From the NCBI GenBank assembly GCA_002118135.1, contig BDIU01000109.1, positions 1-64,000 on the forward strand: a stretch of DNA of 64,000 nt, in the 5' to 3' direction. The notes under the pieces are model-generated. The model had not been told where the DNA came from. It saw nothing but the letters and a program-made list of their open reading frames with translations, and made no database searches. Shown here piece by piece: positions 10,063 to 64,000 of the stretch. The first letter of the stretch is position 1; every line of letters starts with the position of its first letter. This DNA comes from Trebouxia sp. TZW2008 (lineage: Eukaryota > Chlorophyta > Trebouxiophyceae > Trebouxiales > Trebouxiaceae). Made by a program: the position numbers and the translations under genes.

Positions 10063-13000
10063 ATGGAGCCACCTGCAGACAGAAATGCTGCCAAGACAAT
10101 TCCGGCAAATGGCAACGCAGAAAGTGCATCTGCAGATGACGGCATGCCCGCACCATCTACCACACGCATGAGTCCTCCTGCAGCACTTCCGTCTCGTAGA
10201 GCTTCTGCTAGCAAGCAGGCATCAGACACAGCTTCAGAAGGTACGTAAGCTGGCTTGAGTATGAGCCGGAGCAGTCAGTTGCGTTGCATTGTTCACTGAT
10301 CTGGTATGTATGCAGATGCATTGCGGCAAGCTGCCATGCAGGCTGCAGCAGATGCAGCATGGGCAGCTGCGCACCTCACTCCAGCTCAAAGAGAGCGAGC
10401 CATCAACGAGGCTGCATCACAGGTATCTGGCACCTACTACTGTCTGCTTTCAAAAATCGTTGTCGTTTTGCAAATCGTCTTTGAACTGCAGGCCATTGCA
10501 GATCAGCAATCAGCCAAAGCAAATGCGCATGCTGTGCCAGGGAGCTCTCAGCAAGCAGGGCCTCCCCGCCCAGCAGGCACATATGCACAGCCAGAATGGG
10601 GTGCAGCACCAAAAGGGTAAGCACAGCTTGATGACATAGCATGAGCCTCGTCATGTTGCTTGTTGGTCACATGACGCAAGCACACACTTGTCATGTGATT
10701 GGTGCATTGATATGCATGCAAACCATGTTGATGGGCCAATGCAGTGCTGGCATATCTGAGAACATGCATGCTTGGAGCAGAAAGCTGCGATGCAATATGC
10801 GTAACACGGCTCCTTACCTTTGTCTAGCCCACAGATGCAGCATGAGCAATAACAGGACCATGGCAAGCTTTGTGTAGTGAAGCTATGCCTGGCTTGGCTG
10901 ATGCAGACAGTAAGATGCTGCATCTCACTAAGCTGTTCCAGCATGTTGCTGCCACTCACTGACCTGTTCTTGCATTGCTGAAGGATTGCATACACCTTGG
11001 AGACAATGAAGAACGGTGCTGTTGTGGAGCAGCGCAATGTCAACAGCAAGGGACAATACACCTTTGGGCGCAATGAAACTAACGACTTCCAGCTGGAGCA
11101 CCCATCCATATCCCGCCTGCATGCAGTGATCCAATTTTCTGCCGCTGGAGAGTCTTTCCTGTATGATGCTGGCAGCGCTCACGGCACATTCCTGAACAAG
11201 CAACGCCTGAAAGCTCAGGTGCATGTGCCTATCAGGTGTGCCGTCAGCAGCAGCACATATGTGACATTTTTGTTTGCCACAGAGTAGGTGACATGATCAA
11301 GCTCGTGCTGAGCACTCAGCTGCATGTGTTTGAAGGGCCAGCGAAGCTTCTGTGACATGTGGCTTTGCATGGCGGCCTGAATCGCTGCAGTGACACGTGT
11401 GTGCAAGAGAGCAGGCAGCAATATCAAGTTTGGCAAGACAAACTAGATTGCTTGTGTGACATGTGTGTCTCTCTCACAGTTTGGGCTGAGCACTCAGCTG
11501 TGTGTTTCTCAAGGCTCAGCAAAGCCTCTGTAACAAGTTCATTTGGCATGATGGCCTGCAGCGCTTGTGTGACATATGTGTTTGCCACAGAGTAGGCAAT
11601 ATGATCAAATCTGGGCTGAGCACCAGACTGCACATCTATTCGAGGGTCACAGGAGCTTCTGCCACGTGTGTGATTGGCCTGGCAGTCTGCAGCACTTGTG
11701 TGACATGTGTGTCTGGAATGCCTTGCCTTTTATTTGAACAGATGGACATTCTTGATTCACACAACAATTGTATGACATGTGTGTTTGCCACAGAGTAGGC
11801 GATATGATCAAGTTTGGGCTGAGCACCCGGCTGTACGTGTTTGGAGGGCCAGAGGAGCTACGGCCAGAAGAGGGACTCAGCAAGCTACAGCGCAAACAGC
11901 TGGCAGCCCTTGAGGTATGCTTCTGCGCAAATTTCAGAAGGCTTGGGCGTGTGAATTTTGGTCACATCTTTTGTGCAATCATGTTGAGCTACATACACAG
12001 TGAGTTTGTCCCTGAACAGAGCGTTGTGGCAGTCAAGGTCACCAACTCAGTGATGTGGCCAGAAGTGGGATTTAACAAACTGCAGTGCAAATAGCTGGCA
12101 GCCCTTGAGGTAAGCAGTGGTCATCTGCGTCTCAGCAAGCTGCAGCGCCAACAGCTGTCAGCGCTTGACATCAGCTGTAACTTCACCCATGGGTGGCCTC
12201 CTCTCTGCTTTCTAGCCTTCTTAGAGTCACCTGTTGCCTGAGTCAAGCATCCCCTGCTACTCTGAACAGCTGAAGCCATGATCCTGCCTGATCATGTACA
12301 TAGTGTCAGGGCATTTGCTGCTGAACTTGTGTACTGCCACCAATGTGACCACCAGTGTGTAGTGACAAGCCTGTTCCCTGCATGGCAAGTTTTGAGTCTC
12401 CCTGTTGCAGGCAAAGCAGAAGAGGCAGGCTAAGGAAGCACACACGGCCAAGGCCCAGATGGACGCTGCTCAGAGGGGCGGTGTGTTGTCGGGCGTGGCT
12501 GATGACCTCGTTTTGTCTATTCTTTTGCATTTCCTATTGAACAGCTGCAGCACTTGTTCTAGCTGATGCATCCCACAGAAAACAACTTGAAAAGATGATT
12601 TGGAATGATACAGGCAAAGGAGAAGAGGCAGGCTAAGGAAGCACAAGTGGCTAAGGCCCAGATGGATGCTGCACGACGGGGCGGGGTGTCCTGGGGCATG
12701 GCTGATGATGCTGCTTTAGAAGAAGACCTTGAAAATGTCACTGAAGGTACAGCGGAACTGTTACAGTTGAACTGCTGTTGTCCAGCAGGTTTTACTACTA
12801 TCTAGTGCTTGTTAGCACTGTGCTTATTGCCTTGAGCGCTTATGCCCATTTGGGGGGGGGGGCATTGTCCTGGGCTGATGATGCTGCCCTGGAAGAAGAC
12901 CTTGAGAATGTTAGGGAAGGTGCAATGAACTGTGCTTTAGCATCTTTCAGCAGTTTTCAGCATTGTCTGGTACTCTGCTGCATACATTACCTTGAACACC

Positions 13001-16000
13001 CATGTACATCAAAGACACAGTTTTGACAGGAAGAGTATTGAAGACCAACATTCATGGACACTATACAAAGCTGTCCACAGAAGCGTGTTGACTTACCCAG
13101 CTGCATACAAGCTTGCGTACTTGCTAAGCATACCGACCTGACTGCAACTTCACCACCTGTGGGCTCAGTTGTATGCATCAACCTACAAGTGATGCATTCC
13201 AATTTTGTCATTTTACACGCTCTACATTGCGCAATGACCTGGCTGATGCAGTGGTCAACAAACATCACATGCGCCTATTGTGGTATACACAATCAGCTGT
13301 CCTAGAAGAACAAGATAGGCGCCACACACACCCAGCACTCCTGCCAGCATGTGTAACAATTACCTACATGATGATGCATGGGTAGTTGCTGTTGACCAGC
13401 GACAGCATGTACCTAACTGGGCCTCCTGAGCCTGCCTAGCATGCTTTTCTGACGCAAAAACAAAAATGAATTGAAGACATGTGATTGCAGTTGACTGACG
13501 GCTGTACAGTCATGTTTATCAGCTGACAGACTGTTACACCCTGACATATACTCTACATGCCTTGACAGCCTGGCTCATATGCTGGTGCTTGCAGTTGACT
13601 GGCGGCTATACAGTCAGAGCCATCAGCTGACAGATAAGCAACAGAAGCTGGCAGATAAGATCAGGCGCCAAGAGCAGAAGATCCACAACCTGCAGACAGA
13701 GACTGATCGCATCAAGGTATGCAACCCATGACTGCAAATTGTGCACCGACAAGCCTGTATGCTCTTGATGTTGGTGCTTCTCACGGTTGTGTGGTGCTGG
13801 GCTGTGGTGCCTGACAGCTTGGCATGTTCACCTGTTGTGTGCCATTCTGGGGCCCGCGCATGCTAGTGTGGCAGATGTGAAACCCAGTCAAACCATTTTG
13901 AGCCTAAATGTAGTCAGCATTGTGCGCATGCTGTGCATGAACAGAAACCTAGGTAGGTGTCTGCCACAGCCATTAGCTGTACACAAACAGCTTGTAGCAC
14001 AAGCTGCAGCACTGCCCTGTAGCATGCCAGCAGCTCTGCAGTCAGTGTGACACTTGTTATCCACCCTTGACTATCCACGTTTGTCTGGCTCAGTGCACAA
14101 CTCCTCGCAGGCAGCAATTTGCTCCTGTCCTTTTCAGCTGAATGTTTGATCTTTTTGCAGGGCGCGTGGGCATGCATGAGTACTGTCACTGTCTTAGTCA
14201 TCATTGGCATGCTCTGCAAGAAGTTGCTGTGTGAATATGCCTGCACTCTGCTGACGCTGTGCCATGCTGCTGTTGATGCAGGCCAAGCAGAGTGATGCTC
14301 AAGAGTTGACATCTGGTCAGGCCAGTACCATGGCACGCAATGAACAGGTCATTGATACTCTCACAGGTAAAACCAAAGCGCTCGAGCACAGCTACACTTA
14401 TCTGCATGCATACACATTCACATGTCAAGTAGGACAACTGACCAGGCCAGCACCGTGACACGCAATGAACAAGCTAATGATACCCTCACAGGTAAAGCGA
14501 ATGCGCTCAAGCACAGCTACACTCCTGTGCATGAAGACATTTGCATTCATGCACAACACTACGCAGAGCAAGAGCAGAGCATGACAATTGCAAGTTCTGA
14601 CATCTGGTCAGGCCAGCATCATGGCTCGCAATGAACAGGTGATTGACACCCTCACAGGTAAACACAACCTTTTCAGAACACATGCGCACATTTGCATTCA
14701 CACACAACACTATGCACAGCACAGCCTGCTAGTGAAGGTTGTCTGCTGTATTTCCTAGATCAAGGCAACACGACAACATGCAGGACGGAGCATTGACCAA
14801 TTCAAGCGCGTTTCAGCAGGCTGACGCGTTGCTGCATGTACCTCGTTTGCATTCATGCTATTATGTCCTCAGAATGATCTCAGCTGCAGGTTGTCTCAGA
14901 TGCATTTGACTCACCAGCTGAGGCATGTGACCCCATACCGTTTGCGTCACAGGACGCAAACACTTTTTAGTCATGACCTGCCGAATGTTAAGCTCACTCA
15001 CCTGTGCTTTCAACTCAGGAAGTTTGCTGAGTCATGTCTGGCTCCCTATCGCAGACTATTGGTTTTGCTGATTGGGCATTGATTGAAGATGTGTGTATGT
15101 ATGCAGAGGAAGTGGATGACTTAGATGAGGTTCTGAATGAGTCCATATTGGACTCCATAATAGGCAAGAGAAAAGCAGCAGAGGCTGTGAAGAAGAAGAC
15201 TCGCAAAAGACGGCGAGGGGACGATGATGATGAAGACGAAGAAGACTTGGGGTGAGCAGTCTATTGCCATTTGGCTTGTTGACCTTCATTGGCCCTTTAT
15301 TTCTGCACACCACAACTCATGATGCATAAGTCTGCGATGAGTCATTGAACAGCTTGTTGCATGACAATGCATCACCATTACTGCTTGCTGCGGAGGTGTA
15401 AATAACCAATTTCTACAATCGCTTTCAAGCAAGGCAGCGTAAGATCTATGTTTTGTTTCTCCTCTGATGTGTTTCCTGTCAACAATTGGTCGGTTCCTGC
15501 AGAGATGCGGATGACAGTCTCTATGACCCCACCAAGGCAGTGCAGCGCAAGAGCTCAGTTCAATTTCTCCTGATGTGTTTTCTTTCAAGACTTAGTTGCT
15601 GCTCCTTGCGGGGATGCGGACGGCACTGAAGCAGTGTGGCACACAATCTGCATTTGGTTTCTCGTGATTTGTTTCTCTTTCGACAATTGACTGCTGCCCA
15701 TTGCAGGGATGCAGGTGACAGTTCCTATGGTTGCACTGAAGCAGTGCAGCACAAGAAGCGAGCTGCAGTGCCAGAGCCTTTAGTTGCTGCTACACTTGCT
15801 AACGGCCTGCTGCAAGGATGCTAAGCACAACTTTCACTGCTTGTCGTTTTGCTTTTTTCAGCAATTCCTTGCTGCCCATTTTTAGGGATCTGGATGACAT
15901 TGTCTCTGGGTTTACTGCTGCGTCTTCCTTATACTAGTCATTGCTGCGTCTGCACAAGTGCAGACATTGTCTGCCCCTACTTTCGATGCATTGTGCTTTC

Positions 16001-19000
16001 ACCATGTATTGCTACTTGCTGCAGGGATGTAGATGACAATTTCTATGACCGCACTGAAGCAGTGCAGCACAAGAAGCGCGCCGTGGTGCCAGAGTCCCTA
16101 GATGCTGCTACTCTTCTAGGCCAGAAGGCAAGCCTAAACCAAAAAGCTCCTGCCATTCATGAGGCGTTGCTGGATGGCTTGATGCGCTGAGACAACTCCC
16201 TTGAGCTGTGCCAATGCTGTTGACACAACAAACCTTTTCCATGTTGCTCTTCACGCAAGCAGTCAATGATGAGACAGCACAGCAGTGACTAGAACTGCAA
16301 TGCATGCATTGCTTTTGTAAGCACTGCACCACATTTTCTGATCTGCTGCATTTCCAGGTCATTGTGTCCTGATCAACTGTGTGTTACACCTGCGTTAGAG
16401 TTCTAGTCGCATTTAGATGCACCATGTCAACATGATGGGTCTTGATGCAGATCTTTGTAGTGATGCAGGAGGCGCTTCAGGCTGAGAAGTCACGCATGCA
16501 AGGTTTGCTTGTTCAAGAGGAGCGGGCAGCTGCTGCAGCAGTAGGGCAGCATCCTGCTCAACTAGAGTCCAGCAGTGAAACAGAAGATGCTCAGAGACAG
16601 TCCAGTGCTAAGGAAGAAGATGAGTTGGATGCCTTCATGGGACAAGTGGCAGTACAACTGGAGCAAGATAAGGTTTGTCATGGCAGCTATGCACGGCTTT
16701 GAGTGGCTTATAAATCGCAACTGCTTTCTTCACTCATACACAGGTCTTGTGAAATTTTTGCCACAAAACTGCTCAGATGTATTGCAGCAGTGACATAGAG
16801 GATGAATTGGGTACCTTCATGGGAAAAGTGGCAGTGCCACCGGAGTAAGATAAGGTCGGTCAGGGGATTCCAAGGCTTGTGACAAATTATCGCTTGCAAA
16901 GCTCATGCACAAGTTTTATGTACCCTGCACCACAAATTGCTCAGAGACAGTCTATTGCTAAGGAAGAAGATGAGTTGGATGCCTTCATGGGGCAAATTGC
17001 AGTGCAACTGGAGCAAGATAATGTCAGCTTCAGAATGATCGCCAATGCTCTGGAATACAGATTGCATGGCTCGCAGAAAAAGAACGTGAAAGTGAATGCC
17101 TTCACGGGGCAAGTTGCAGTCCAACCAGAGCCATACAAGGTGAGATAAGCAATCCTTTGCATGACTTCTGTACAGACTTTGCTTGCAAGGCTCATGCACA
17201 GGTTTTTTGTATGCTGCACCACAAACTGCTCAGAGACAGTCTGGCGCTAAGGAAGAAGATGAGTTGGATGCCTTCATGGGGCAAGTGGCAGTGCAACTGG
17301 AGCAAAATAAGAGGTCTCTCAGCTTACCAATGCTTTGTAATACAGGATGCATGGCTCAGTGAAAAGAACATGAAGCTGAATGCCTTTCATGAGGCAAGTT
17401 GCCGTGCAGTTGGAGCAAAATAAGGTCAGATAAGCAAGGCTTTGAGTGGCTTGTGTGATGTCCTTGGCCACACGCCTCATGCACAGGTCTGGAGCAGATG
17501 CTGTTGGTTGGATGTTGTTGCCCGACAGCTATCTACTCTCTTCCAGGTTGTGAGCTTGTCAGGTCAGGTCTTGCATCCAGTTGTTCTCAATAAACCACAA
17601 ATGAACTCCTGCGCTGCCACAAACCTATAGCCCAGGTCAAATCACCGTATTGTATAGCAGACAAACTGCACAGATGTGGTGCCATCCACCGTGCACAGAT
17701 TGGGGCAATCTCTCTGAAATTGTGCTGCTGCAAGCTTGCAAACTATCGCTTGCAGTGAAAAATCAGACCTATAGTCTTGCATGGTGCCAATGGGAGTTGA
17801 TGTTGATGCTGCTGCAGGTTGAAGCTTGCAAAAGATAATTTTTAGTATGCAAAAACACCTGTAGTCCTGCATAATGCCAATGATAGTGTTCCTACAGATT
17901 GGATTTTGCACAGTTGAGTTCAATACTGATGATGTCTGTGATCCTGCACACTGTCAATGGATGTAAGTGTTGGTGATGCAGGTTGGAGCTGTGAAGAAGG
18001 ACATTGCTGAGCTTGATGCCAAGACGCACAGAAAGTGCGCTGTTGCTAGCTATTGAAATACAGTCCCCACAGCAGACCCTTGTCTGTGATCATGCACTTC
18101 AGTCAACGAGCAGCTGCTGCTGAACCAGGTTGGAGCTGTGCAGAAGGAGATAGCTGAGCTTGATGCCAAGATGCAAGAGGCAGAGCGACTCCTCAAGGTG
18201 ATGGCAACAGATCTCAAACATGCTTCTGCTTAAACCTTGGTTCCCAGTCAAATCAACAGTGTTGAAAGCCCTCTACAACACATGACAGATCACCTTGTTG
18301 GGTCAATCTGTCGCAAGGCCACCAGCCTTGAGCTGGTCGTGTCTCACATTCACTCTTTAGTAAATGTCCAACCGTGTACTCAGATACAGTGCTGTGAATC
18401 TCTTGACACCAATTTTGCCTTTCTGTGGGCGTTGCGCAGATCTGAACGGCTGATGCAGCTGACAGTGATGTTGGCACTTCGCACTCAACATCAAATTCAG
18501 AGCGTGGCAGTGTCCACTGAAAAATTTGAAGCAGGTGCACTGATGTGTTCATGATCCTGTGCACGTCATCCTGCTTCAACAATTCAGAGGTTGGCAGTGT
18601 GCACTCAACATCGAATTCAGAGGGTGGCAGTGTCCACTCAACATCACGCTCCTGCTTTGATAATTCCAAGGTTGATAGTGTGCACTCAACATCAGTTTCA
18701 GAGGGTGGCAGTGTCCACTCAACATCTTGAAGAAAGTGCACTGATGTGTTCATGATGCTGTGCACGTCATCTGCAGCCATTGCCAACAGGATCTTCCATT
18801 GCCAAACTGTGCATGCAACCTACTCAACACCTTACCATATGTCTGGAGTGTGGTCTACGTTTTGCTTCAATGTGCAGTCAAGCTGTTTGCTGAGTGCTGT
18901 TTCCCCTATCCAAAGCTGAACAGTAAGGCTTTGCCTCTCAAGTCACTGTGGAGCATGGTTCATGAGTCTGCTGTGTTGCGTCTGCATGATGCTTGGCGTC

Positions 19001-21852
19001 TGCTAAGTGACATGCTCATGTTCAGATTCATGTCTGCGCCCAATTACTCTTGCTTTTGTTGGCACCTGTAGTCTGCCGCCAAAACTGGCAAGATGCCCTG
19101 TGTCTGGCAAGGCCTGCATAAGCAAGCCCTGCAAATTTTGTGTTTCATATTTGTACGTGTCTACCAGGTGGCGGACCCAGATGGCTACTTCAAGAGTGGA
19201 AGCAGGGCGGCCGAAGCTGCCAAGGCAAAAGCTCAGAAGGCTATGCAGCTGGAGAAGCAGCAGAGGGAACTCAAGGAGCAAAGAAGAAAGGAGAAACTGG
19301 TAAGTCCCCCTGCTCAGGCAGGCTCAGGTCGGGTCCGTTGCTTACTCTGTTGGTCTGTCTGTTGTGCACGGAGCAAAGAAGAAAGGAAAAGCTGGTAAGC
19401 ATGCTTGATGATTGTGCTCGAGTGTTTGTTGAGGACATTCACTGCCAAGTTAGTGAGGCATGCATTCGCATCTGACTTGCCCCTCGGCCTGTCTGCTGAT
19501 TGTCTGCTGGCAAGCAAAGAATAAAGGAGAAGCTGGTAAGCTCCCTGCTTGACCACACCCTGGTTCTGTCTTGTTGATGTTGACTTGCTTGTTTTGACAA
19601 TACAGCTGACCTGCTGTGCAGCCCTGCCAGGTGTTACAAGTCAGCACATTCAAGCTTCTCATGTCAAAGCTTGCAACTTTAGTGGACAACTGGTCAGCTG
19701 CTCAGGATGCAGTTGCTTCTGAGATAGCACGTTGCAAGGTTTGCACGCTGACAGACGCTTGGATGCCTCATGTACAAGCCACCTTCACTGCACACATCAG
19801 TACAGTTTGTCGTGCTGTGCATTGCAAAGCTCTGTACTGCCTGTGCAAGCAGGTCAGGTAAGTCACACACTTCACAACGCAGAACACAATTCTGTGTATA
19901 GCAACGCCTTGCACTTTGTGTGCAGGCGGCTCAGAAGCTGGAGCAGGAGGCTTTTGTACCTGAAGAGGAAGCTGATGATGAGGTCAGTAGACCTGTCATA
20001 CAGCCATCTTATGCATATCCATCGTGACGAGACTTGTAGCATAATGAGTGCAAATTTGACATGTCCAGTTTGCTGCCTCATTTCTCAAAGCCTTGACCAA
20101 GTCGCAAATACATTCACAGGGCAAGTGGGTCCGTGAGTCGTGTTGTGCGCACACCTAGCCCTTGTGCTGGAACATTCATGCTGACATCATGCATACTGCA
20201 AGGTCCGAAATTGAAAGAACTAGGTCTCAAACACACTCTTGGCTGCCTGTTATGGTATCATGTCATGACAGCTTGCAGCACCCAGGGCAGAAGAGCTACA
20301 TGCAACAGTCATTGCACAAGCTTGTTTCTGAGTGTCGTTCTCAACATAAGAGATCTTGGGCCACTCACATGCAGCACCTGGTATAGACCTGGCGCTATCA
20401 AGTCTAACCCCTAAGTCTAACCCCTAAACCCTAAATAAGTCCTTTTACCCCTCCTTTACCACGCATGATACATGTGCAGGTCCCTGTGCAAGCAGCAGAA
20501 GTTCCAACAGTCAGTTTTGCACCCAGCCAGGCCAGAAGCAAACCTTCCCTTGAGCGCACATCAGCCGCAGGCAATCCAGAAATAGCCCCGCTAGCTGCTG
20601 CAGAAGCGACTGGTTCTGGTGTGGGCAAGGGCAACCAGGCAGAGCCCCAAGGGCTGCAGGTATGTTTGTCTTGCACCCAGTATCAGCACTGCCAGCAAGC
20701 CTTTTTTGCCCTGCCCATCTGCTTTTTGTGCCTCTTACCCCTCTCCTGCTGCTGTTGCTGCAGATTTTGAAGCCTTTTACAGATGCACAGGAGAGCAAGC
20801 CGCCAAACAGGCAGCAGATTGCCGCTCTGCTTCTTCTGCTGTTCCTTCTCCTGCTGCTCCCTCTGTGATAGCTTGTTCTGCTGCAGATCATGCAGTGCAC
20901 TGGAGGGCAAGCCACCTAGCAGTTTGTTCCTTCTTCCTCTTCAATTTTTGCTTCTTACCCTGCTTGTTTTGCAGATGGCAGATGATGAGCTTTGTGCAGA
21001 TGCACGGGAGAGCAAGCCACCAAGCAGGCAGCCTCTTGTTCTGCTTACGCATCATTACCTCCTTCTTCTTATATATCTTCTCAGGTATCTTCTTTTTGTG
21101 CAGATCATGCAAATGCACAGGAGGGCAAGCCACTCAGCAAGCAGCATATTGCAGCTCCTTCCTTCAAAACCTTGTTTTACACTCCATGTTGATGCAGCTG
21201 AATTCACTTCTTCCTTCTTCCTCTTCTGCAGATCATGCAGCCTCCCGCAGAAGCACAGGAGGGCAAGCTGACAAGCAGACAGCAGCTTGCAGCCCCTTTC
21301 TTCTAATCATTCTGCTGCAGTCAATGGTGACACACGTGAATTCACTTCATCCATCTTCCTCTTCTGCAGATCATGAAGCCCCCAGCAAATGCACAGGAGA
21401 GCAAGCCGCCAAGCAGGCAGCAGATTGCAGCTCGCCTGGCTGCTGGAAAGGCCAAACCGCCCAAAGTCCGCTCAAGCCAGCAGGATATTGAAGCCAAGGT
21501 AAAAGCTGGCTGTGCCTGTATACGTTGTGATGTTGGTCTTTCAATGCTGCAAACGGGTGGTAGAAGCAACACACTTCTGCAGAAATGAATCACAGTGTCA
21601 CCATCATTGCGCAGATGCTTGACGAAGAGTATGATGTTACAGAGGCTCCTGTTCTGACGCTTGATGGTGTAGACTGTTTTTGGAAATGTGCAGGTGGCAG
21701 CAGACCTTGCAGCCCTGACAGGCAGGGCTAGTCATCATGAGTATGAAGATCAGCATGACGTCTCTGCAAACATTCAGCAAGAGCCATGGAAGCCACCACA
21801 AGGGCAACGGGGGGATGGCAAGACCAGCTTGAATGATAAACTTGGATACTGA
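10063..21852 (+). CDS. Kanadaptin-like FHA-domain protein
   Basis: Seventeen exons join in phase to 766 residues: 10063-10240, 10316-10422, 10492-10616, 10984-11235, 11794-11914, 12614-12746, 13595-13716, 14282-14366, 15107-15251, 16025-16127, 16469-16672, 18129-18197, 19168-19299, 19926-19982, 20480-20659, 21370-21498 and 21694-21852. Residues about 137-245 form an FHA domain with YTFGRNETNDF, HPSISRLHAVI and GSAHGTFLNKQR. Next come a coiled-coil/acidic centre with GVSWGMADDAALEEDL, a KKKTRKRRRGDDDD nuclear-type basic/acidic patch and NFYDRTEAVQHKKR, and finally the conserved kanadaptin tail (EPWKPPQGQRGDGKTSL, ending NDKLGY). The animal homologue is SLC4A1AP; in plants it is a nuclear FHA protein of uncertain role. 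The intron after 16127 appears to use a GC donor. Nearly every intron holds decayed copies of a neighbouring exon. Confidence 0.92.
11286..12172 (+). repeat. Decayed copies of kanadaptin exon 5
   Basis: Copies of the exon encoding VGDMIKFGLSTRLYVF occur at about 11286-11350, 11480-11530 and 11591-11660, upstream of the intact exon (11794-11914). Copies of its 3' half follow at about 12062-12110 and 12130-12170. Two upstream copies keep the CACAG acceptor, and the 12062 copy keeps a GTAAGC donor, but frames are broken by substitutions and stops. Confidence 0.8.
12415..12922 (+). repeat. Decayed copies of kanadaptin exon 6
   Basis: The exon encoding AKEAQVAKAQMDAARRGG (12614-12746) is preceded by a close copy at about 12415-12505, still with a TTGCAG acceptor. 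It is followed by a copy of its 3' half at about 12866-12920 with DDAALEEDLENV readable. All three are in the same orientation. Confidence 0.8.
14430..14658 (+). repeat. Two copies of kanadaptin exon 8
   Basis: The exon encoding QASTMARNEQVIDTLT (14282-14366) recurs at about 14444-14491 and 14609-14658. Both keep the reading frame and a GTAAA donor, so they could be read as alternative 3' exon ends; each lacks a clear acceptor at the equivalent place. Confidence 0.75.
15503..15930 (+). repeat. Decayed copies of kanadaptin exon 10
   Basis: Copies of the exon encoding DDNFYDRTEAVQHKKRA (16025-16127) begin at about 15503, 15620, 15707 and 15886. The 15707 copy is nearly full length and reads TEAVQHKKRAAVPEPL, with a TTGCAG acceptor. 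The others are shorter and more diverged. Confidence 0.78.
16780..17426 (+). repeat. Five copies of kanadaptin exon 11 3' half
   Basis: The block KEEDELDAFMGQVAVQLEQ (3' half of 16469-16672) recurs at about 16795-16853, 16938-17022, 17082-17140, 17228-17311 and 17366-17425, spaced roughly 110-180 bases. Copies at 16938 and 17228 stay open with one or two changes. Several end in a GT donor at the homologous base. This is the clearest exon-copy trail in the gene. Confidence 0.88.
17975..18035 (+). repeat. Copy of kanadaptin exon 12
   Basis: A copy of the exon at 18129-18197 (VGAVQKEIAELDAK), reading VGAVKKDIAELDAK behind an intact GATGCAG acceptor, then diverging before any donor. Confidence 0.75.
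18473..18727. repeat. Minisatellite in kanadaptin intron 12
   Basis: Four to five diverged units of about 60 bases, each made of two related halves carrying GGCAGTGTCCACTCAACATC. No reading frame is conserved, so it is treated as a plain minisatellite. Confidence 0.7.
20403..20436. repeat. Interstitial telomere-like CCCTAAA repeats
   Basis: CTAACCCCTAAGTCTAACCC followed by CTAAACCCTAAA: imperfect units of the plant-type TTTAGGG telomere repeat, in an intron of kanadaptin. Related short stretches occur at 4626-4638, 41227-41240, 44893-44906 and about 59860-59870. Confidence 0.7.
20763..21302 (+). repeat. Five copies of kanadaptin exon 16
   Basis: The exon start encoding IMKPPANAQESKPPSRQQIA (21370) is repeated at about 20764, 20886, 20975, 21103 and 21232, at 89-138 base spacing. 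Each sits behind a TGCAG-type acceptor and a pyrimidine-rich tract. Copies at 20764 and 21232 remain open for about 20 codons. The pyrimidine tracts have few stops, which creates a 290-codon open frame across the array that is not a gene. Confidence 0.88.
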
Positions 21853-26200: not shown

Positions 26201-26694
26201 ATCAGCAAGGCCAGGGTCAGCTGATGGCAAAGGTACAGCCAGTAAGCTTGCAGAGCAGGCGTCAAATGCTGCCGGGGTAAGCATTCTCATTATACTTGCA
26301 GTGACAAACGTGGTGATTTGGCAGAGGTCAGCCTTGTCGAGTCTTGCATCCTCTGATTGCAATCTGCATGTGCTGCTGTTGGGAAGGTGTCATGGAGTCA
26401 ACTTGTTGATATTGTTGTTGCAACATCACACTGATGGGCAACACTTTGGCTATCATCACTGAATGGTTTGATCTTGATGTCGAATCAGCTCATGTCAACA
26501 GGGCACTGCAATCTCATACAAGTTGCCTACAGGCAGATCTCAGCATGGTCTGTAGTGTTGAAGCTGACTGACAACATTGTGTGGTGCTGCAGTCTGCACT
26601 GTCTTACACCCAGGACAAGCTGACCAGTGCTTTTTCTGCAACACAAAACCTGTTTGGCGGCAAGAAGACTGCGACGCCAGCAGCCGAGCTATAG
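23280..26694 (+). CDS. Canopy/MSAP-type saposin-like ER protein
   Basis: Six exons (23280-23483, 23576-23800, 24832-24996, 25818-25887, 26158-26276, 26593-26694) join in phase to 294 residues. The start gives a clear signal peptide, MKKLFVARVICVLLTTCCA. The saposin-like fold shows the expected cysteines: KCQVCEVL, GECGVECKT and WLCRQLTKSC. DRKPGPAFVELDEQQ, the Met-rich QKMMASMK and YDRDTIMKKYMNGY lead into an acidic DDYEDDDEEEEAD tail. The order and motifs match plant proteins annotated as TLR4 regulator/MIR-interacting MSAP (Arabidopsis At1g42480 type), related to animal Canopy proteins, which act as ER-lumen folding cofactors. The last exon, after the acidic tail, is a Ser/Thr/Ala-rich extension. 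Introns 2 and 3 contain decayed exon copies. Confidence 0.88.
24058..24720 (+). repeat. Decayed copies of MSAP exons 2 and 3
   Basis: Copies of the exon 2 end (GDRDTDLAEE) appear at about 24058-24108, 24280-24325 and 24508-24545, each within a longer repeated unit that also carries GCCTAGCTTGTTGCCTATTG. A copy of the exon 3 start (LKMNRSQ) is at about 24667-24720, behind a TTCTGCA-type acceptor that has lost its final G. Confidence 0.75.
25327..25379 (+). repeat. Copy of MSAP exon 3 end
   Basis: MDEQQAQLQKLMASMK is readable in a copy of the last 52 bases of exon 3 (24832-24996). The donor GT at the exon edge has become TT. Confidence 0.8.
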
Positions 26695-31700: not shown

Positions 31701-31737
31701 TGTTGCTGCTGTCAGCACTGCTGTCTCTGCTGCTGCC

Positions 31738-43100: not shown

Positions 43101-43391
43101 CAAGCATAGCCTGTGCATTGACTCGGGCGTAGTCATTGCCTGCAAGACCTCAAGTTGCCTTCACGCAACCAACACCGCTACACTGCAAGCTCTAATACAA
43201 GCAAGCATAGCAAAAGCTTTTGATTTTAGGACAGCTAAGTCACAGTGACTGCAAGCATAAGACATAGAATGAGCAAGCATAGCAGATGGCGTTTAGAACA
43301 AGGCATACACATCGATACTGACCAGATAGGACTTGTGCCACACATACCTAGCAGTATATGCTGGAATATGTAGTTGTTGTTACTACTACTA

Positions 43392-43438
<47 letters not shown>

Positions 43439-50700: not shown

Positions 50701-53659
50701 TCTGGCACCGTGGACTGCTTCACCGTCATATGATGGCTGCATGCAATGACCCAAGTGCAGGCTGTTTGTGATCCCAGCTTGTACCTTGGTCAATCAACGC
50801 AGGCCTGACGCAATGCTTGCAGGCTACAAGTGATGAAATTTGACAGAGCCCCTGACCACGGTGCTTGGGTTATGTGCAATTGTCCATCTGGCACCGTAGA
50901 CTGCTTCATCGTCATGATATGGCCGCATGCAATGATCCATGCGCAGGCTGTTTGTGATCCCAGCTTGTAACTTGGTCAATCAACGCAGGCCTGACGCAAT
51001 GCTTGCAGGCTGCAAGTGGTGAACTTTGACAAGACCTCTGGTCATGGTCCATGGGTGGCATATAATGTTTTCTCTGGCACTGTATACTGTTTCCACATCA
51101 TAATATGGCTGCGTGCATGAAGCACATGCAGGCTCTTTGGTTTTGCACCTTGTTCAACTAGTGCAGGCCTGATGCAGTTCCTGCAGGCTGCAAGTGATGG
51201 CATTTGACAAGGCCTCTGACCATGGTCCCTGGGTTGCGTATCATGTCCCAGCTTGCACGGTACACTGCTTCGGCATCAGGTCATGACTGCATTTGCAATG
51301 ACCCACATACAGGCTGTCTGGCTAATGCAGGTCTGATGCAATGCTTGCAGGCTGCAAGTGGTGACCTTTGACAAAACCCCTGACCATGGTCCTTGGGTGG
51401 TGTATCATGTTCCATCTGGCACTGTATGCCTGGACAAAAGGTCAGTTGGCTCACAATAGGACACGCATATCATGAATACATAGATGTCTCCTTTCCTAGT
51501 TTGGAGCAAAGGGATAGATCATGCCTCTGTACGTTACATGTATTGCTTGGAACCTTACAGTCCTTGTATCACTGAATGTCTGGACAAAGGGTCAGTCCAC
51601 TCACGGTATTACATCTCCATCAATGCTTTTACAGCTGTTTGCAAGAGCATTACGAAGATGTAGTACCGTGCCACCTCACACTGAGTCGCTGCTCCACTGT
51701 TGCCCTGCATCAATGCTGTTTCTTTGAAGAGAAACATGTTTGACATGCAGTATCTTGGACAAGATGCAAGAACTGCCATCCAGCTTGGCTACCAACATAG
51801 AAGCCTTTGCTAGCCAGCTTTTCAAACATCTTCCAACAGTGCCATTGGCTAACGACCAACAGGTGCATCTCCATGGCTTGTTAGAACACTGACAACAACA
51901 ATGATGATACTAATCTTCAATTCCTCGCACATCTTCTTAAAGCACTGTTTGCCTTTGGTCAAAGTGTATGAACCATACACTCTGCTGATAATACAGGTCA
52001 TCGCATTTGCATTGCACACTCTGCTGTGGAACAGATGATGAAAGGCTGGTTGCGTTGCATGCTTGGCAGAAGCAGCCGTGAGTTTCTGCTTGACTCCTGC
52101 CAAGGTTTACATGACTTTGCTGTTGGGTGCTTGAGGCAGTAAAAAATCCACTATTTGTATAAGTGTCTTGTGTGCAGCAGGCTGAACATGTTGCTTACAT
52201 GGCAGAAACATTCAGCATAGCTGCTGCTGCAGCTGCAAGCCTTGCACTGGCCAGTCAGACCCCCCTTTGGTACTGCATAGGCTGCCCCATAGTACTGGGA
52301 ACGCTATTTCAGTTTTGCTTTGGGAGCTAGTGTATCAATGTCTTGTATGCTGCAGGCTGGAGAGATTGCACACTTAGCAGAAGATTTCAACACAGTCGCT
52401 GCTGCAGCTGCAAGCCTTGCGCTTGCCAGTCAGATCCCCCTTACGTCCTGTATAGGCTGCCCATCAGTACTAGGAATGCTGATTCCCTTGCCTTAAATTT
52501 TGATTTGTGAGCTATTGTATAGTTGTTTTGAATGCTGCAGGCTGGGAATATTGGTTGCTTGGCAGAAGCATTCAGCACAATTGCTGCTGCAGCCACATGC
52601 ACTTGCACTTGCCAATCAGGGTCCAATTCGGTTCTACATAGGCTGCCCATTGTCATTGGTGAAGCTCGTGATAGAAGCAATCTCTTTTGTGCTGCAGGCT
52701 GGTAACGTTGCTTACTTGGCAGAAGCTTTCAGCACAGCTGCTGCTGCAGCTGCAAGTCTTGCGCTTGCCAGTCAGATTCCCCTTTGGTTCTGCATCGGCT
52801 GCCCAATAGTACTGGGAATGCTGCTCCCATTTGCCTTCAATTTTGGTTTGGGAGCCATTGCTGATGAACTATGCACATACTACAGTCTTCCTGCTGATGA
52901 ATGCACACAACTCTGGTAAGCTCTGCGCCTTCTGCATTTTAACCTTGGCCGGAAATGCTGTCAGACTACCTAACCTTTTTCTGAAGCCTTTCTCTGAAGT
53001 TTAGGCAAACATGAGCAAAAGAAAATTTTCTAGATGCAATATGCCTCTTTTGCATCTGAATGGCCAGTTGTGTTGCATCTAATAAGTACAGATGTAACAA
53101 CTGTGCAGCATCTTGTGGTTTGGCTTTGCAGCAATCAGCAATGCAATGTTGAGTGGTAACTGCCACATTCATGCGTGAGAATGCTGGTACGTTGTTGACA
53201 GAGGCATATTCTGTTGATGCAGGTACAGCGTTTTTGCTTCGGCAATGATTCTGTCGTTTGCATCAGTTATCCCAATCGTCAGCATCTGCAAATTAGCGCA
53301 ATGCGCAAAGCTTGCCAGTGAGCATGCCTCTTATCTTGCCCCCTAGAGTTTTTGTGACATATTTTTTGCCTGTTGATGCAGGTTCAGCGCCTTAGCTTTG
53401 GCGAAAATTCTATCGTTTGCGTCAGTCATTCCAGTCATCAGCATCTGTAGACTAGCATAATTTGCAAAGCATTTGCAGTATGCATGCCTTGCTTTCTAGC
53501 CACTGCACTTTTTGTGACATAGTCATCCTCTGGTGATGCAGGTACAGCGCCTTTGCTCTGGCAATGATCCTGTCCTTTGCATCAGTCATCCCCATCGTCA
53601 GCATCTGCAAACTGGCGCAATGCGCAAAGCATTCCAGCCCCAGTCCAAGCTTGTCATAA
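47710..53659 (+). CDS. Gene C: unidentified membrane protein with repeated exons
   Basis: Well-supported exons are 48223-48313 (LQEALDSLHDYSAVVVVLPG), a seven-copy exon set at 50356-51440 (HGPWVVYHVPSGTV), 51751-51862 (MQELPSSLATNIEAFASQLF), 52698-52915 and 53542-53659 (stop). The last two join in phase and encode three to four hydrophobic helices: IPLWFCIGCPIVLGMLLPFAF, FNFGLGAIADELC and YSAFALAMILSFASVIPIVS. A candidate first exon from ATG 47710 encodes a basic, Ser/Arg-rich leader starting MSCVLLPRARSHQ, like a plastid transit peptide, but its junction to 48223 is unresolved. Which of the seven copies is spliced, and how it joins 51751, is also unknown. I do not recognise the family. It may be an organelle or endomembrane integral protein. 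It is tail-to-tail with gene F. Confidence 0.62.
48360..48560. repeat. Two tandem units of about 90 bases
   Basis: TTTG(T/C)CACGCTCAAATTGATC and TGAGGCCATGGAGCAGC recur in two adjacent units with only a few differences, in an intron of gene C. Coding status is unclear. Confidence 0.8.
49463..49636. mobile_element. Small inverted-repeat element, pogo/Tigger-like MITE
   Basis: The ends CAG(T)A(A)ACTCTC(C)TTGTAA(G)GAC at 49463-49485 and the reverse complement of 49614-49636 agree at 18 of 23 positions. The interior has repeated TAAGGACA motifs. It is 174 bases long and non-coding. The CAG start and TAAGGACA runs are like pogo/Tigger ends, by memory. A solo end of the same family is at about 49108-49155 and a weaker one at about 7996-8045. 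Confidence 0.6.
49902..49945. repeat. CTTTT microsatellite
   Basis: About nine CTTTT units with minor breaks, in an intron of gene C. Confidence 0.9.
50340..51440 (+). repeat. Seven tandem copies of a gene C exon plus intron
   Basis: Units of about 185 bases each carry a TTGCAG acceptor, then an exon reading LQV(V/M)xFDKAPDHGPWVVY. Exons begin at about 50356, 50456, 50637, 50823, 51008, 51190 and 51351. The 50637 and 50823 units differ at roughly 5% of sites, while the others are more diverged. Most copies keep the frame through HGPWV. Confidence 0.92.
52181..52640 (+). repeat. Three copies of gene C membrane exon 52698-52915
   Basis: Copies begin at 52181, 52356 and 52541, each after a TGCAG acceptor. 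All show the AEAFSTAAAAAASLALASQ block and the following IGCP region, in varying states of decay, at 157-185 base spacing. Confidence 0.9.
53223..53465 (+). repeat. Two copies of gene C last exon
   Basis: Copies of the exon start (YSAFALAMILSFASVIPIVS) begin at 53223 and 53382, both with a GATGCAG acceptor and about 160-base spacing. Both stay open for over 25 codons; only the copy at 53542 reaches the CAKHSSPSPSLS end. Confidence 0.88.
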
Positions 53660-56106: not shown

Positions 56107-59100
56107 CTATGACAGCTCAAAACCAGCATTTGCAGTAATAGCATACAGCAGCTTTTCTTTCAATGTGGCAGCTCTCCTGTAGTTGGGCAGCTTCAGCATG
56201 TTGTAACAGGTACTTGCTGATGGAAGTCTGTCCACATCTTTGCCTCCTACTGCTGCCAGCAATGACGCCTCACAAGGCACCTATGCAGCAAACATGATTA
56301 GTGAACTTGATATCCTTAACTGTCAGCCGAGAGCTGTCAATCACAGAGCCAACAGACGAGGGTCTCAAGAGTTGCCAGCAAGTGCGCCTCACAAGACACC
56401 TACACAGCATAACTTCATCACTTGACTTGCCTCAGAAAGAGTGCTGCCTGATGGTAATCTTTCCACATCTTTGCCTCCTACTGCTGCCAGCAAAGGTACC
56501 TCACAGGGCACCTGCACAGCATAGTTTCATCACTTTACTTGCCTCAAAAAGAGTGCTGCCTGGTGGTAGTCGGTGGACAGCTGTGCCTCCTGCTGCTGCT
56601 AGCAAAGACGCCTCACAAGGCACCTGCAGAGCGTATAACAACATATGTAAACAGTCACTTGTCTGCAAAAGCTGTGGGCAGGACTTTGTGCATAAGACCA
56701 TGAGACACATGCTGCTTTGACAGCTGGCAAGGGACCTGCAAACCGTATAACATTGGTCTGCATTCAAAGCAGGCGGAGATTTTAGCTTGGCAATCAGGAT
56801 CTGTGCATCCCGCACTAAAGCATCACTTGAAGCCTGTAAGTACAATTACTTGAATGCCTTTGCAGAAAAGGTGTGCATGGCTGTGGTTTTGTGCATATAA
56901 GCTGGTTTATGTCAGAGATTGTGTCAGAACACTAGCTCAACTCTCAGCGAAGGTTGCATTGCATGCCCCAAAACAAAAGCTTGGCAGTCAGAGTGTGATC
57001 ACATGCACCTTGTGGAGCGTGAGAAACAAGACTAGGCACTGCTCAAAGGCGCTCAGAACATGCTTGGTCACAAAAGCTTACCAGACTTGAAACAATCTAG
57101 ATGTTTTGACAGGTACCTTGTGAATTGTGAGGGGCGGGTTGAGGTACTTGAAACCCCCAAGTGGTGCGCGGCTGCAAGAGGTTGCAAACCTCATGAAAGC
57201 TTGCTGCTCCTTGTCTGTCAGGCTGTTCATCACCTGCCACACAGAAGGCGGAATGTGTCTAAAAAATTTTGGTGCACACGCAGCTGATTGAGATGCTTGA
57301 ACCCTCCTAGGGGCAGTCCTCTACAAGGTCATGACCCAGACTCTCATGCTCCCATAGTCCACAGTGCTGACAGAGAGAGAGACTACACGCTTTGCCCAGC
57401 CGATATTTCTAAACTTGGGCTGGGGGCTGCCGCTCTTTGGGGTTGCCGCTCTCTGGGGCCGCTCTCGGGCGCTCTCTGGGGGTTCGCTCTCTAGGGCCGC
57501 TCTCTGCTTGAGAACGAGGGCGGTTGATGGCGACGGGCTTTGCTGGATGGTGGCCAGCTGCGGCAAGCTGTTGTAAGCTGATCGCGTGTGTCAAAAGCTG
57601 ATCAAATATTGAGACAATCAAGGCAATCAAGAATAAATTTGAACACCTGCGTATGATCCCTTTCACCAAAAACTGATCTCATGGTGTCAGTCTGAGATGT
57701 CAAAAGAGAAGCATACTGTTGCCTAAGCGGCTGTAAAAGATAGCACTCAAACACAAGATTAATCTCATCAGCAATTGACCCACAGCCACAATGAGCACAA
57801 ATCCTGTCTGTCCTATTGACCCGTGGCCCACCCACAAGGCAATGAATGGCAACAGGCAACTGTGATGTTACGTGTGTGCATGCTGCATGCAAACTGACTT
57901 GATGAGCGACACATTTTGTCCAGAGCAGCTTGATGGTGCAGTTGTCTATGGAGTAGCCTCCCTATTGGTCTGATGTGCAGTCATTATTGACTACAGCAAC
58001 ACCATGATACGGCACATGTGCATGCAAGATGACTGGCAAGCAACGTACCTTCCAGAACAGCTTAATGGTGGCATTGTCTTTGGAGTAGCCGCCGCTATAC
58101 TGTGCATGGGCTGCCATATCTGTCACATGTAAAGCTCCCATCTCCCCGCCGCCCAGCAGCTGATTCACCTCTTGGGCATTGAAAAGCTTCAGCCATGCTG
58201 GTGATATCACCTGGCAAGCAGAAGAGATCAATGATGTGATTCAGTGCCAGTCTTGTCACTAATGAATGTGATGAATAAGATGAATGATGGACATGAGCTG
58301 CCATGTCTGTCACATCTGCAGCTCACATCTCTCCTCCACCAAGCAGCTGATTGACCTCTTGGGCGTGGAGCAGCCTTAGGCAACTGGCGGAATCACCTGA
58401 TTAGTCATAAACATGAGTGATACAGTACACAAATGACATAGATAGCATAAGTACAGTGGAAATTACATTCTTTACGGCAACTGGGGTCATACTTGAGCCA
58501 TGCCATGAGCAAAAGCTGCTGAAGATGAGGCCAGAGGTTTAGGCAAATGCCACTCTGCCGCCAGGTGAATGTACTGTAGCTTGTTCAGAGGATGCTAGAC
58601 ACTAGGTTGCCTAAGGTCATGTTGTTTGGTCAAGTCAAGGGATCAAATCCTCCAGGTTGCCCAAGGAAGATCTGGAATGACATTCTTTTGTCTGAATTCC
58701 AACAGTTGAACATCAGGCGTCCATATCGCGATGCTCAAGACAAGCCTGCCTGGCGAGATAGGACTTGTGCCACACATACCTAGCAGTATATGCTGGAACA
58801 TGCAATCATTATGAACATTATTATGATTGTTCAGAGGGAGGGTGGGGGCTTGTTCAGGGCTGGGGTGGGACTGGGAGAAGCGGGCAGGGAGGGGAGGGGT
58901 GGGAGGGTGGGGGTTTGGGGGGAGTTGCGTACTTGAGCCATGCCATGAGCAAGCTGAAATGCGGCGTTTGTGCAAGTGCCAGTCTTGGCCATGTGAATGT
59001 ACTGTAGCTTATTGCATTGCAAGAGGGGGCAGATGTTGTTTGCAATAAGCAAGCATTCCACAGCTGAGCCAATCCACGAGCAAAAGCTGAAGATGCGGCC

Positions 59101-62100
59101 AGGCGTCTGTGCAAATGTCAATCTGCCGGCAGGTGAGTACACTGTAGCTTATTGCAAGAGGGCAGGTGGTGCCCAGGGGTGGGGTTGGGGGTGGGAGAGG
59201 GGTGGAGGTATTACATACCTGAGCCAGCCCACGAGCAAAAGCTGCTGAAGAAGCAGCCAAGCGGCCATTCAGATGCCAATCTGCTGCCAGGTGAATGTAC
59301 TGTAGCTTGTTGGCGCTGGTGACCGCTAGTTGGTTCCCTCCAGGCACCAAGTTATGCACAGTTCTGACGCCGAAGGTTTCATCCTCTACTGAGAAATCCA
59401 AGCACAGGTCCGCTGCATCGCCTTCATAGCTACCCACAGCAGCAAGACAGTCACATTTCTACTATGAGCACAGGATTTCACTAGTTCCATATCCACGTGA
59501 AGGCTGCAGTCTATGCACGACTTGAGCACAGGCGTGACAGTGACATGAAATGATGCTGTTTACGCAGCCCAAGTGCACAATTTTTGTGACACTGCTGGAA
59601 GAGCTCTGTCATCAGTCTCTTTTACAGCAGCTTGACTCCGCTGTGCATGACAACATGCTCCCCAACAGCGTATTTGAACTGTAAGACTGAAGATACACTG
59701 ACTGTTAGGGGCGCTGGTAGCTTTAACGGTCTTTGCTTTTGCACACAGTCTGGACAGGCTTTGGGCATGCCATTTGCATTGAGCCAGGATACTGTGCTTT
59801 TCAAAGCCTACAATTTTGAAGAGGTGAAAACAACTCAGAGTTAAGGCAACGTGGAGTTGTTTAGGGTTTGGGGCTTACCCTTTGAGCTGCACCAGGCTGC
59901 GGTACAATTCAGAATCCAGGGCTGCCAAGTCATCAAACATAGGGCGCCTGCCCTGAAGCCGGGCTACAAAAAAGGGCGCCAAAGGCACATCCAGCAAAAT
60001 GCCCTCATACAGGGCCTTTCCTACCACCAGCCCCAGAAACTCTAATAGCCCCAGGCCATTTGGAACTTGACTTGCGGTTGGCTGTGGGTAGGCCAAACCC
60101 TCTAGGGTTGATGTGAACAGGCCATAGTTGGCATCAAAGCCAGTGGCAATGGCCTGCAGACAAACAGAGTCATCATGTTTTAGCTAAATAATCAGCGCTT
60201 GATGGACACATGGGCACTGCCTTACCTGGCACATGCAATCAGCCTCATTGGCTCAACAAAGCATGTAAATATTGCTGCTGCTGCTTGTTTCTGTTGCAAA
60301 CCCTGAGAGCTGACATCCAGCCAAAAGCTGGGACGCTTGGATTCATTTTGTTGCAAACCCTGAAAGCTGACACTCAGTCAAAAGCTGGGGCGCTTTGATT
60401 CATTCTGGTGCAAACCCTGAAAGCTGACATTCAGCCAAAACCTGAGACGCTTTGGTTTGTTCTGGTGCGAACCCTGCAAGCTGACATTCAGCCAAAACCT
60501 GGCTCGTTTTGATAAAAGCCAGCCATTGTGTTTAGCCCATTTACTGCACGCAATCAGTCCCAGCAAGTGTCATTGATTGATGGAACAGAGATCCCTGCAA
60601 CAAACAGACCAGTCAGAGCTGCCGGTCTTGATCAGAAGTGGTTATTGGAGTGTTCATCCTGAAAACTACAAAGCACAGGTGTACTGAAGGACTGCCTTTG
60701 CTGTGGCTTAAAAAGAAAGCTTTCAAGATGCTGTACTGCAAAAAAATTCTACTTTGTATGCCACAGTGAGGACTGTCTGCAAACAGAAAAAAGGAAAGAA
60801 AAGAAGGAGTCTACTCCGTGAGGCATGTTTGAGAGGCCTCGAATAGACCGTGGCGTCCCTGTATTGCTCTTCAAATCTTCACCTGTTTCAGAACTTCTTT
60901 GACCAGGTTATTGTGAAATAGTCGCAACACCCTCTTGTCATGCATGGCAAGACAAAAATCACCCATAATGCACCTATGAAAGACTGAACCAAAACACTGG
61001 GAAAATGCTGGTTCACCTGTTCCAAGAGCTTTTTGACCAGGTCGCCATAGTCTAGAACTGCTTCAAGCATGCTTTCACACAACTTAAGTAACATGCTTCC
61101 ACATCAACTTCTTCAACATCTGTTTCACCATGTATGCCAGGAGTAATTTATATCTGTGAACATCTATTTCACCTGCTCCAAGAATTCTTTGACTAGACCA
61201 CCATAGTCTAGGCCTGCTTCCAACATGCCCTGCTCGTTGATGAAGGACACCACCAAACGGCCCTTCAAGGATTGCCCTGCCTTGTGAAGTGCAGCCCAGC
61301 CATCTTGCAGCAAGCTATTTCTGTGGATGGTGACCTTTAGGAGGGGTGATCCCCCCTCCCTAGGGGGTTTGTCCCACCGGCCCCTGCAAACACAGAGCGC
61401 AAATGCAACACTGCCGACAACAAAGGTAAACTTTGGTTTTTGACAGATATGCCACTGTGGATGGTGACCTTCATGGGGGTGGTCCACCCTCACTAGGGGG
61501 TTCATCCCAGCGGCCCTCTGCAATAATAGATTCACCATGCACTACTGCCAAGCAAAGCTGAAGCCGACAAATGTGGAAAAGCCATGCTACTGCAATAGCA
61601 ATTCACAAGACGAACTGAGCTTGCAACTACCTAGCTGAAACATCACAAAAACTTTTCTGAACACTCCAGAACCTGTCCTTAGCATCACTTGTGTTTTGCA
61701 ATTCAGCACCCCAGACAAGTCTGGGACTTTGCTTGGATCCTACGATGGACATGGACTACACTGTATTTTGGCTGACTCATACCAGAGGCTATACACATCT
61801 GTGAATCATTGCAACGCACTCATCCTGCATGTAACATTACACAATGCTCTTTGTCTCATTCAGTTGAGCTGTCAAGACCAGCAAACGAATCTCTTGAATG
61901 CAAAAGCAATCGTCACATCAAGACATCGCTCCAGTGAAACTTGACGTCACATACCGTTCTTTGTCTGCGTCCACCAGAGCTCTGAAAACCAGCAACCTGT
62001 GCTCAAACGGTATACATTGAGGGGCTGTGCCAAGCAGCCCTGCCAGGGCAGCTGGCCAACCTCCTGCCCCTCTGCCAACAGCCCTGCACATAGAATGCAA

Positions 62101-64000: not shown

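Follow-up and report, generated by a model that had tools for sequence, protein, structure and literature searches.

Introner elements are introns that share sequence and are dispersed. Internal gene-segment duplication is reportedly a common process, and the work on it is said to concern duplications within coding structure. A 2014 study by Vaughn and Bennetzen is reportedly cited alongside tandem duplication in rice. Passages of a rice study state that insertions in that genome are most often tandem duplications, with an enrichment at 50 to 200 bp (PMC7971508). According to passages of a second study, tandem duplication in mouse and human cells occurs at breaks with protruding ends through fill-in and end joining (PMC8355091). 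In a potato gene, one duplication of the 3′ side of an intron together with the 5′ side of the next exon made a new intron, as described in part of the corresponding paper (PMC4974935).

The window analyzed here, the whole 64-kb stretch of Trebouxia sp. TZW2008 DNA shown above, contains introns that carry decayed copies of parts of the exons beside them. As in the rice passages, the duplications are direct and mostly not of transposon origin, and they are probably adjacent. The proportion in rice falls beyond 125 bp and the copies are segregating, whereas in the alga the median event offset is 197 bp and the copies are old; those rice passages give no relation to splice sites (PMC7971508). The duplications at breaks in mouse and human cells are direct and adjacent, with induced overhangs as small as 43 bp in the passages concerned (PMC8355091), whereas the machinery of the alga is known only from repair-related profile matches in its genome (Ku-domain, 3; DNA polymerase A, 15), which do not distinguish mechanisms. 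The potato duplication, in the part of the paper that describes it, created an additional intron plus further exonic sequence (PMC4974935), whereas the algal copies lie within existing introns, which lengthen. No new intron was found in the three genes modelled here, whose joined exons keep one open frame without the copies. Decayed half-exons in introns also differ from the duplications within coding structure to which the internal-duplication work reportedly refers. Introner-like dispersal was considered and rejected: introners are dispersed, whereas the introns of a gene that do not flank a given exon contained no copy of it. Among the titles and abstract openings listed in the literature searches, none apart from the potato paper described half-exon copies in introns, which does not imply their absence from print, and the passages of an intron-evolution review contained nothing specific to them (PMC3488318). 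The duplication process is known; the half-exon rule set out below and the readable record look unusual, as may the density of the duplications.

Three genes were modelled by hand, with 27 exons called by eye and splice sites placed from the open frame; the models may miss further exons (Table 1). The joined exons of the kanadaptin-like gene form a single open frame of 714 codons with no stops, 15 GT donors, one GC donor, and AG acceptors, and Pfam places an FHA domain in it (E = 2.4e−18). Single open frames free of stops were also obtained for the MSAP-like gene (246 codons) and the HECT gene (325 codons), the latter with a Pfam HECT domain (E = 1.6e−69, profile positions 6 to 273 of 306). 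The MSAP-like gene has no Pfam match, and its name, like that of the kanadaptin-like gene, was assigned by eye and from the earlier note.

Table 1. Modelled genes, their exons and exon copies, and tandem arrays in the window
Feature	Position	Strand	Remarks
Kanadaptin-like gene	10063..21498	+	16 hand-called coding exons; more may follow
Kanadaptin-like exons 1-6	10063-10240, 10316-10422, 10492-10616, 10984-11235, 11794-11914, 12614-12746	+
Kanadaptin-like exons 7-12	13595-13716, 14282-14366, 15107-15251, 16025-16127, 16469-16672, 18129-18197	+
Kanadaptin-like exons 13-16	19168-19299, 19926-19982, 20480-20659, 21370-21498	+
Kanadaptin-like exon 5, three upstream copies	11283..11663	+	at 11283, 11478, 11591; two reach acceptor
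Kanadaptin-like exon 5, two donor-side copies downstream	12057..12168	+
Kanadaptin-like exon 6, acceptor-side copy upstream	12411..12504	+
Kanadaptin-like exon 6, donor-side copy downstream	12854..12920	+
Kanadaptin-like exon 7, acceptor-side copy upstream	13491..13530	+
Kanadaptin-like exon 8, two donor-side copies downstream	14433..14657	+	GT in both
Kanadaptin-like exon 10, three acceptor-side copies upstream	15394..15797	+	at 15394, 15503, 15707
Kanadaptin-like exon 11, five donor-side copies downstream	16797..17422	+	at 16797, 16938, 17093, 17227, 17364
Kanadaptin-like exon 12, acceptor-side copy upstream	17982..18028	+
Kanadaptin-like exon 13, two donor-side copies downstream	19367..19535	+	at 19367, 19513
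Kanadaptin-like exon 16, four upstream copies	20764..21293	+	at 20764, 20996, 21104, 21232; three reach acceptor; repeat family D13
MSAP-like (saposin-like) gene	23280..26232	+	5 hand-called exons
MSAP-like exons	23280-23483, 23576-23800, 24832-24996, 25818-25887, 26158-26232	+
MSAP-like exon 2, two downstream copies	24056..24318	+	at 24056, 24282; one reaches donor
MSAP-like exon 3, acceptor-side copy upstream	24665..24725	+	acceptor now AC
MSAP-like exon 3, donor-side copy downstream	25321..25377	+	donor now TT
Tandem array, units 232, 155, and 77 bp	30306..30913	.
Tandem array, approx. 186-bp unit	50312..51454	.	copies ~60-90% alike; no modelled exon attached
Tandem array, ~175-bp unit	52133..52860	.
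Tandem array, ~160-bp unit	53157..53637	.
HECT ubiquitin-ligase gene	56431..61303	-	6 hand-called exons; more possible on either side
HECT exons a-f	61173-61303, 59879-60153, 59219-59429, 58049-58210, 57117-57233, 56431-56511	-
HECT exon a, donor-side copy downstream	61017..61072	-
HECT exon c, three donor-side copies downstream	58494..59154	-	at 59154, 59014, 58585
HECT exon d, acceptor-side copy upstream	58292..58396	-
HECT exon d, donor-side copy downstream	57918..57965	-
HECT exon f, three copies around	56217..56623	-	at 56623, 56511, 56280; used exon uncertain

Each exon was compared with both of its flanking introns, or with 1 kb of flank at the ends of a model, at a score threshold of 40, which lies above the maximum of 38 reached in 1080 shuffled comparisons. 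The three genes, on both strands, contain 37 such copies, which derive from 15 of the 27 exons and occupy 14 of the 24 introns; the reverse complements of the flanking introns yielded none. The earlier note had reported exon copies in all three genes and had called for the fraction of introns that match an adjacent exon against shuffled controls. The copies are confirmed, and the fraction, 14 of 24, falls short of the "nearly every intron" of which it had spoken. Multiple copies of an exon do occur, as it had described, at 1 to 5 per affected exon side instead of one to six per exon.

The copies are not placed freely. When 60 bp of flank on either side was included in the query, 14 were acceptor-side copies (the 5′ part of the exon) lying upstream of the exon, 19 were donor-side copies (the 3′ part) lying downstream, 1 was an acceptor-side copy lying downstream, and 3 showed no edge. 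Acceptor-side copies were thus upstream in 14 of 15 cases and donor-side copies downstream in 19 of 19 (Fisher P = 1e−8 on copies, although copies that belong to one array cannot be treated as independent; tallied by exon side, the rule holds for 19 of 20). Without flanks, the queries gave 35 copies in the same pattern: 10 acceptor-side copies lay upstream and 17 donor-side copies downstream, a single acceptor-side copy lay downstream, 6 reached neither edge, and 1 was whole. The single exception among the 34 classified copies and the one possible whole copy, whose 3′ edge is uncertain, both involve HECT exon f, the last exon called. The splice site is reached in the expected place by 33 of the 37 copies, and 28 extend past it by 5 bp or more of intron, in keeping with the claim that copies usually include the acceptor and some intron. 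This intron sequence argues against an origin from spliced RNA. The placement is what a tandem unit straddling a splice site produces: the first copy of such a unit holds the intron tail, the acceptor, and half of the exon, while the second leads on into the complete exon. Acceptor-side copies therefore come to lie upstream, with donors as the mirror image. That copies occur both upstream and downstream therefore holds, with the qualification that the exon edge they carry governs the side. The acceptor-side and donor-side breaks coincide in kanadaptin-like exon 5 and HECT exon d; a single event behind both was considered and rejected, the coincidence being absent in two of the four exons with both kinds of copy.

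Eight small light-harvesting (LHC) loci were added to the sample, picked from the list of PF00504 matches before their repeats were looked at. The genome has 47 such matches, which indicates that the organism is photosynthetic. Exon copies were found in three of the eight loci (L025, L026, and L029), and all seven scored copies, spread over five exon sides, lie where the rule places them (upstream for five acceptor-side copies and downstream for two donor-side ones; exons and copies were judged by eye). L028 has repeats between exons and L027 an unclassified repeat beside an acceptor, while L023, L024, and L030 had no repeats at E ≤ 1e−3. There were no inverted matches in any of the eight.

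One complete unit can be read in L029, at positions 1976 to 2280. Its first copy, at positions 1976 to 2119, comprises the end of an intron with a CAG acceptor, followed by 70 bp of exon; the second copy starts at 2125, after 5 bp, and extends through the full exon. Between the two copies, 66 of 70 positions are identical in the exon half and 62 of 74 in the intron half, the latter alignment also having 12 gap columns. A further exon-like fragment, unscored, lies downstream in this locus at about 1145 to 1177. Near-contiguity was found in 11 further pairs of copies, with an overshoot of −4 to 6 bp; the remaining copies are too decayed to show contiguity, and the junctions are too old to be read for microhomology. 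In the three modelled genes, similarity to the intron half predicted for the nearest copy was detected on 11 of the 20 exon sides (P ≤ 0.05, 200 shuffles), and the other nine showed no similarity detectable by this shuffling test, which decay of both introns could explain. On 6 of 18 sides, intron similarity was still detected at distances over 40 bp from the splice site. It ran past the predicted unit on 6 of 20, as expected with several rounds of duplication.

A wider survey covered 254 kb of the genome (68.5 Mb in 527 contigs, G+C near 49%, with the window on contig 106), comprising the window and 19 stretches of 10 kb, of which L007 adjoins the window and 18 lie elsewhere. The contigs were chosen by hand and not at random, and a 1.7-kb piece, L014, was excluded from the counts. 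Self-comparison gave 310 direct matches and 1 inverted match at distances of up to 2 kb. The window accounts for 120 direct and the 1 inverted (99 and 0 under alternative settings) and the 19 stretches for 190 direct and 0 inverted. At least one match was found in 15 of the 19 stretches, and none in L008, L010, L011, and L017. Sequence simulated for each stretch, once with its dinucleotide and once with its 6-mer statistics, gave no matches. Matches over longer distances showed no strand preference (7 direct, 10 inverted) and include short dispersed repeats. These counts bear out the earlier descriptions of the copies as local and in the same orientation, and in the 15 stretches and three LHC loci the duplications are seen beyond the window as well.

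When matches of at least 50 bp were counted greedily, starting with the youngest, the survey reduced to 172 separate duplication events, or 0.68 per kb of the 254 kb. The median offset is 197 bp, and half of the events fall at 100 to 250 bp. No nucleosome-like period in unit length was clear by eye; offsets spread over 100 to 220 bp, with a smaller rise at 300 to 360 bp. Density was 1.71 events per kb in the three modelled genes versus 0.65 in the remainder of the window, where repeats in genes A, B, and C and the transposase-like gene of the earlier note were counted purely as DNA. Offsets divisible by 3 are overrepresented (132:89:89 by remainder among the 310 matches), most strongly where the whole span is open (46:20:26 versus 86:69:63), as expected from in-frame repeats inside exons.

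Further searches added little to this picture. Pfam found only weak matches under curated cut-offs in L020 and L012 (the full plus strands and two of the three minus-strand frames) and no match on the minus strand of the window at 34 to 54 kb. A genome search with DNA of the kanadaptin-like region was weak, with the window itself absent from its results; the 39 of 85 candidates that were scored were all short dispersed repeats, which tells little about copies of exons in other parts of the genome. A CTC1 family search matched nothing in the genome and nothing in any control either, and is uninformative.

Introns with exon copies are longer than those without (median, 794 bp, n = 14, versus 354 bp, n = 10; P = 0.0006), and intron length rises with copy number (Spearman 0.68). 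A long intron offers more room for copies, which still matters, but length is likely the effect and not the cause, because the splice-site-straddling target is independent of intron length. The largest offsets per exon side total 6,535 bp, against an intron total of 15,404 bp. Subtracting 231 bp for the copy of HECT exon f that lies beyond the last exon leaves 6,304 of 15,404 bp, or ~41%, as an upper-end estimate. The proposal that introns grow by local duplication is supported by these lengths.

Few of the duplications are recent. Of the 120 events with K < 0.24, only 2 had K < 0.06, where constant birth predicts 30, and 9 had K < 0.09, where it predicts 45. Loss does not account for this deficit, since the chance that a copy survives declines with age and never rises. 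The causes left are a lower birth rate, collapse in the assembly, or rapid change early on; short-read collapse could explain the lowest K class but hardly that at 0.06 to 0.12, and a real slowing of duplication is possible. The copies, mostly 15 to 25% diverged, include few young ones, which qualifies the spread of ages that had been claimed, and these ages lend no support to a process that is "unusually active". Events that touch exons make up 21 of 33 in the three genes versus about 37% by random placement, and their median K is 0.183 versus 0.195 for intron-only events. Slower decay of exons may explain part of this excess. It is clear in L029 and unclear overall, the exon parts of the copies being 85% identical over 2,206 bp and the aligned flanks, in their alignable part only, 82%.

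We consider it probable that small tandem duplications straddling one splice site, filtered by selection, have lengthened these introns, and the direct local copies and the splice-site geometry make local tandem duplication the likely source, as had been suggested. The copies might instead descend from tandem duplications of whole exons, which supplied extra exons for alternative or mutually exclusive splicing and of which some are now decaying. Retention of the splice dinucleotide by many copies (AG in 13 of 15 acceptor-side and GT in 14 of 19 donor-side copies, 27 of 34 in all) is what such an origin would leave. However, none of the 37 copies is whole (1 of 35 without flanks). Random placement predicts that 26% of exon-touching units contain a whole exon, whereas 0 of 20 exon sides did (P = 0.0025; 1 if HECT exon f is included), which suggests selection against whole-exon copies. 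Reading on from the splice site of a copy ran into a stop or shifted the frame in every one of the 33 tested copies (the 34 classified less the HECT exon f exception), so that a full-length protein requires these splice sites to be ignored. The simplest reason for this would be that a fragment with one splice site goes unrecognised as an exon. Differences between copies and exons number 97, 74, and 161 at the first, second, and third codon positions; gaps occur in 13 of 37 copies and in-register stops in 6 of 37. To judge from these sequences, the copies look unconstrained, the pattern fitting a free copy compared with a constrained exon. We therefore regard whole-exon duplication as very unlikely, and the description of the copies as failed exon duplications gives way to units that straddle one splice site and end within the exon. 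Selection might also have kept the half-exons as splicing decoys or regulators, for which the AG or GT kept in 26 of 33 tested copies could be cited. The overall retention of 0.79 (27 of 34) is close to the 0.77 that drift would give, as estimated from the first two codon positions, where ~12% of sites have changed, and the gaps and stops also speak against a maintained function, which makes this reading very improbable.

Local templated insertion or template switching would paste pieces of a neighboring exon at arbitrary nearby places in the intron, without contiguity. It accommodates the many matches that are shorter than their offset (median ratio, 0.42 to 0.52 for matches 76 to 92% identical) and the nine exon sides on which no intron half was detected. 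In contrast, it does not predict the geometry, which held for 33 of 34 classified copies and for 7 of 7 in the LHC loci, and it leaves the contiguous unit of L029 and the intron half present where predicted on 11 of 20 sides to be explained; we judge it improbable. Merged haplotypes or misjoined repeats would make the copies an artefact of assembly. The 527 contigs, a short run of N in the window, and the near absence of near-identical copies, as a short-read assembly would yield, are compatible with this. Yet collapse hides copies and does not create them, and misassembly is very unlikely because the copies are mostly 15 to 25% diverged, involve different genes and different units, and follow the splice-site geometry.

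Tandem duplication across single splice sites, the reading preferred here, could proceed as follows. Small direct, side-by-side duplications with units mostly of 100 to 250 bp would arise genome-wide over a long time, perhaps by fill-in and joining of staggered breaks or of opposite nicks. A unit straddling one splice site and ending in the exon would place a second acceptor and a half-exon upstream, or a half-exon and a second donor downstream. If splicing kept the outer site, and with it the longest intron, the mRNA would be unchanged; the half-exons would be passed over if exon recognition needs both an acceptor and a donor (exon definition). Each half-exon would then become intronic and drift, and the intron would gain one unit length. 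Duplications of a whole exon or within an exon would alter the mRNA and be mostly removed. The intact exon, being slow to change, may help old copies to stay recognisable. We suggest tentatively, granting it a substantial chance just short of even, that these steps form a ratchet: single-splice-site duplications are tolerated through exon definition and each adds a half-exon and lengthens the intron, whole-exon duplications are purged, and the surviving half-exons date a wave of intron growth that has since slowed.

How introns lengthen in the absence of transposons has left little record, because a duplicated stretch of intron is soon past recognition. With the exon as a reference, old duplications can stay legible, which allows them to be counted, measured, mapped, and dated. 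Through natural exons with a single splice site, which must be ignored, the half-exon rule makes the choice between exon and intron recognition in the splicing of an alga testable with sequence and RNA reads. If the ratchet is real, extrapolation from three genes and eight LHC loci suggests that natural tests of exon definition would number in the thousands in this genome.

Young duplications were scarce across the window and 19 further 10-kb samples of the same genome, with the divergence K below 0.06 in 2 events versus 30 expected under constant birth. Copies of half exons mostly retain either the 5' part with the acceptor (acceptor-side) or the 3' part with the donor (donor-side). The two kinds stop near the same exon position in exon 5 of the kanadaptin-like gene (11794-11914; 66-73 versus 68) and in exon d of the HECT gene (58049-58210; 106 versus 112). 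This shared end position was absent from the two other modelled exons with both kinds of copy.

Called exons 16025-16127 (kanadaptin-like gene) and 56431-56511 (HECT gene) end in GC donors, the latter an uncertain case. A run of 33 Ns inside 41646-42041 has the pattern that a scaffolding gap would leave. On the minus strand, an open frame of acidic composition contains an in-frame 150-bp duplication (37150-37476, 83% identical).

Simple arrays and dispersed repeats in the window
Feature	Positions	Copies or orientation	Basis
Pentanucleotide array ACAAG	9360-9423	12.8 perfect copies	
Pentanucleotide array AGCAC	37725-37818	18.8 copies	
Short dispersed repeats	14995-15087, 13403-13449, 14870-14955	both orientations	DNA search of genome
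Small dispersed repeat family	23822-23890, 29884-29945, 41245-41302		window self-comparison
Small dispersed repeat family	31402-31497, 58683-58802, 63267-63377		window self-comparison
Small dispersed repeat family	43318-43370		window self-comparison
Small dispersed repeat family	5563-5627, 24565-24618, 38853-38914		window self-comparison

The region of the short dispersed repeats gave at least 39 scored matches in the genome DNA search, on many contigs and in either orientation. In contrast to the local direct copies (<2 kb apart), most small dispersed repeat families of the window include inverted members.
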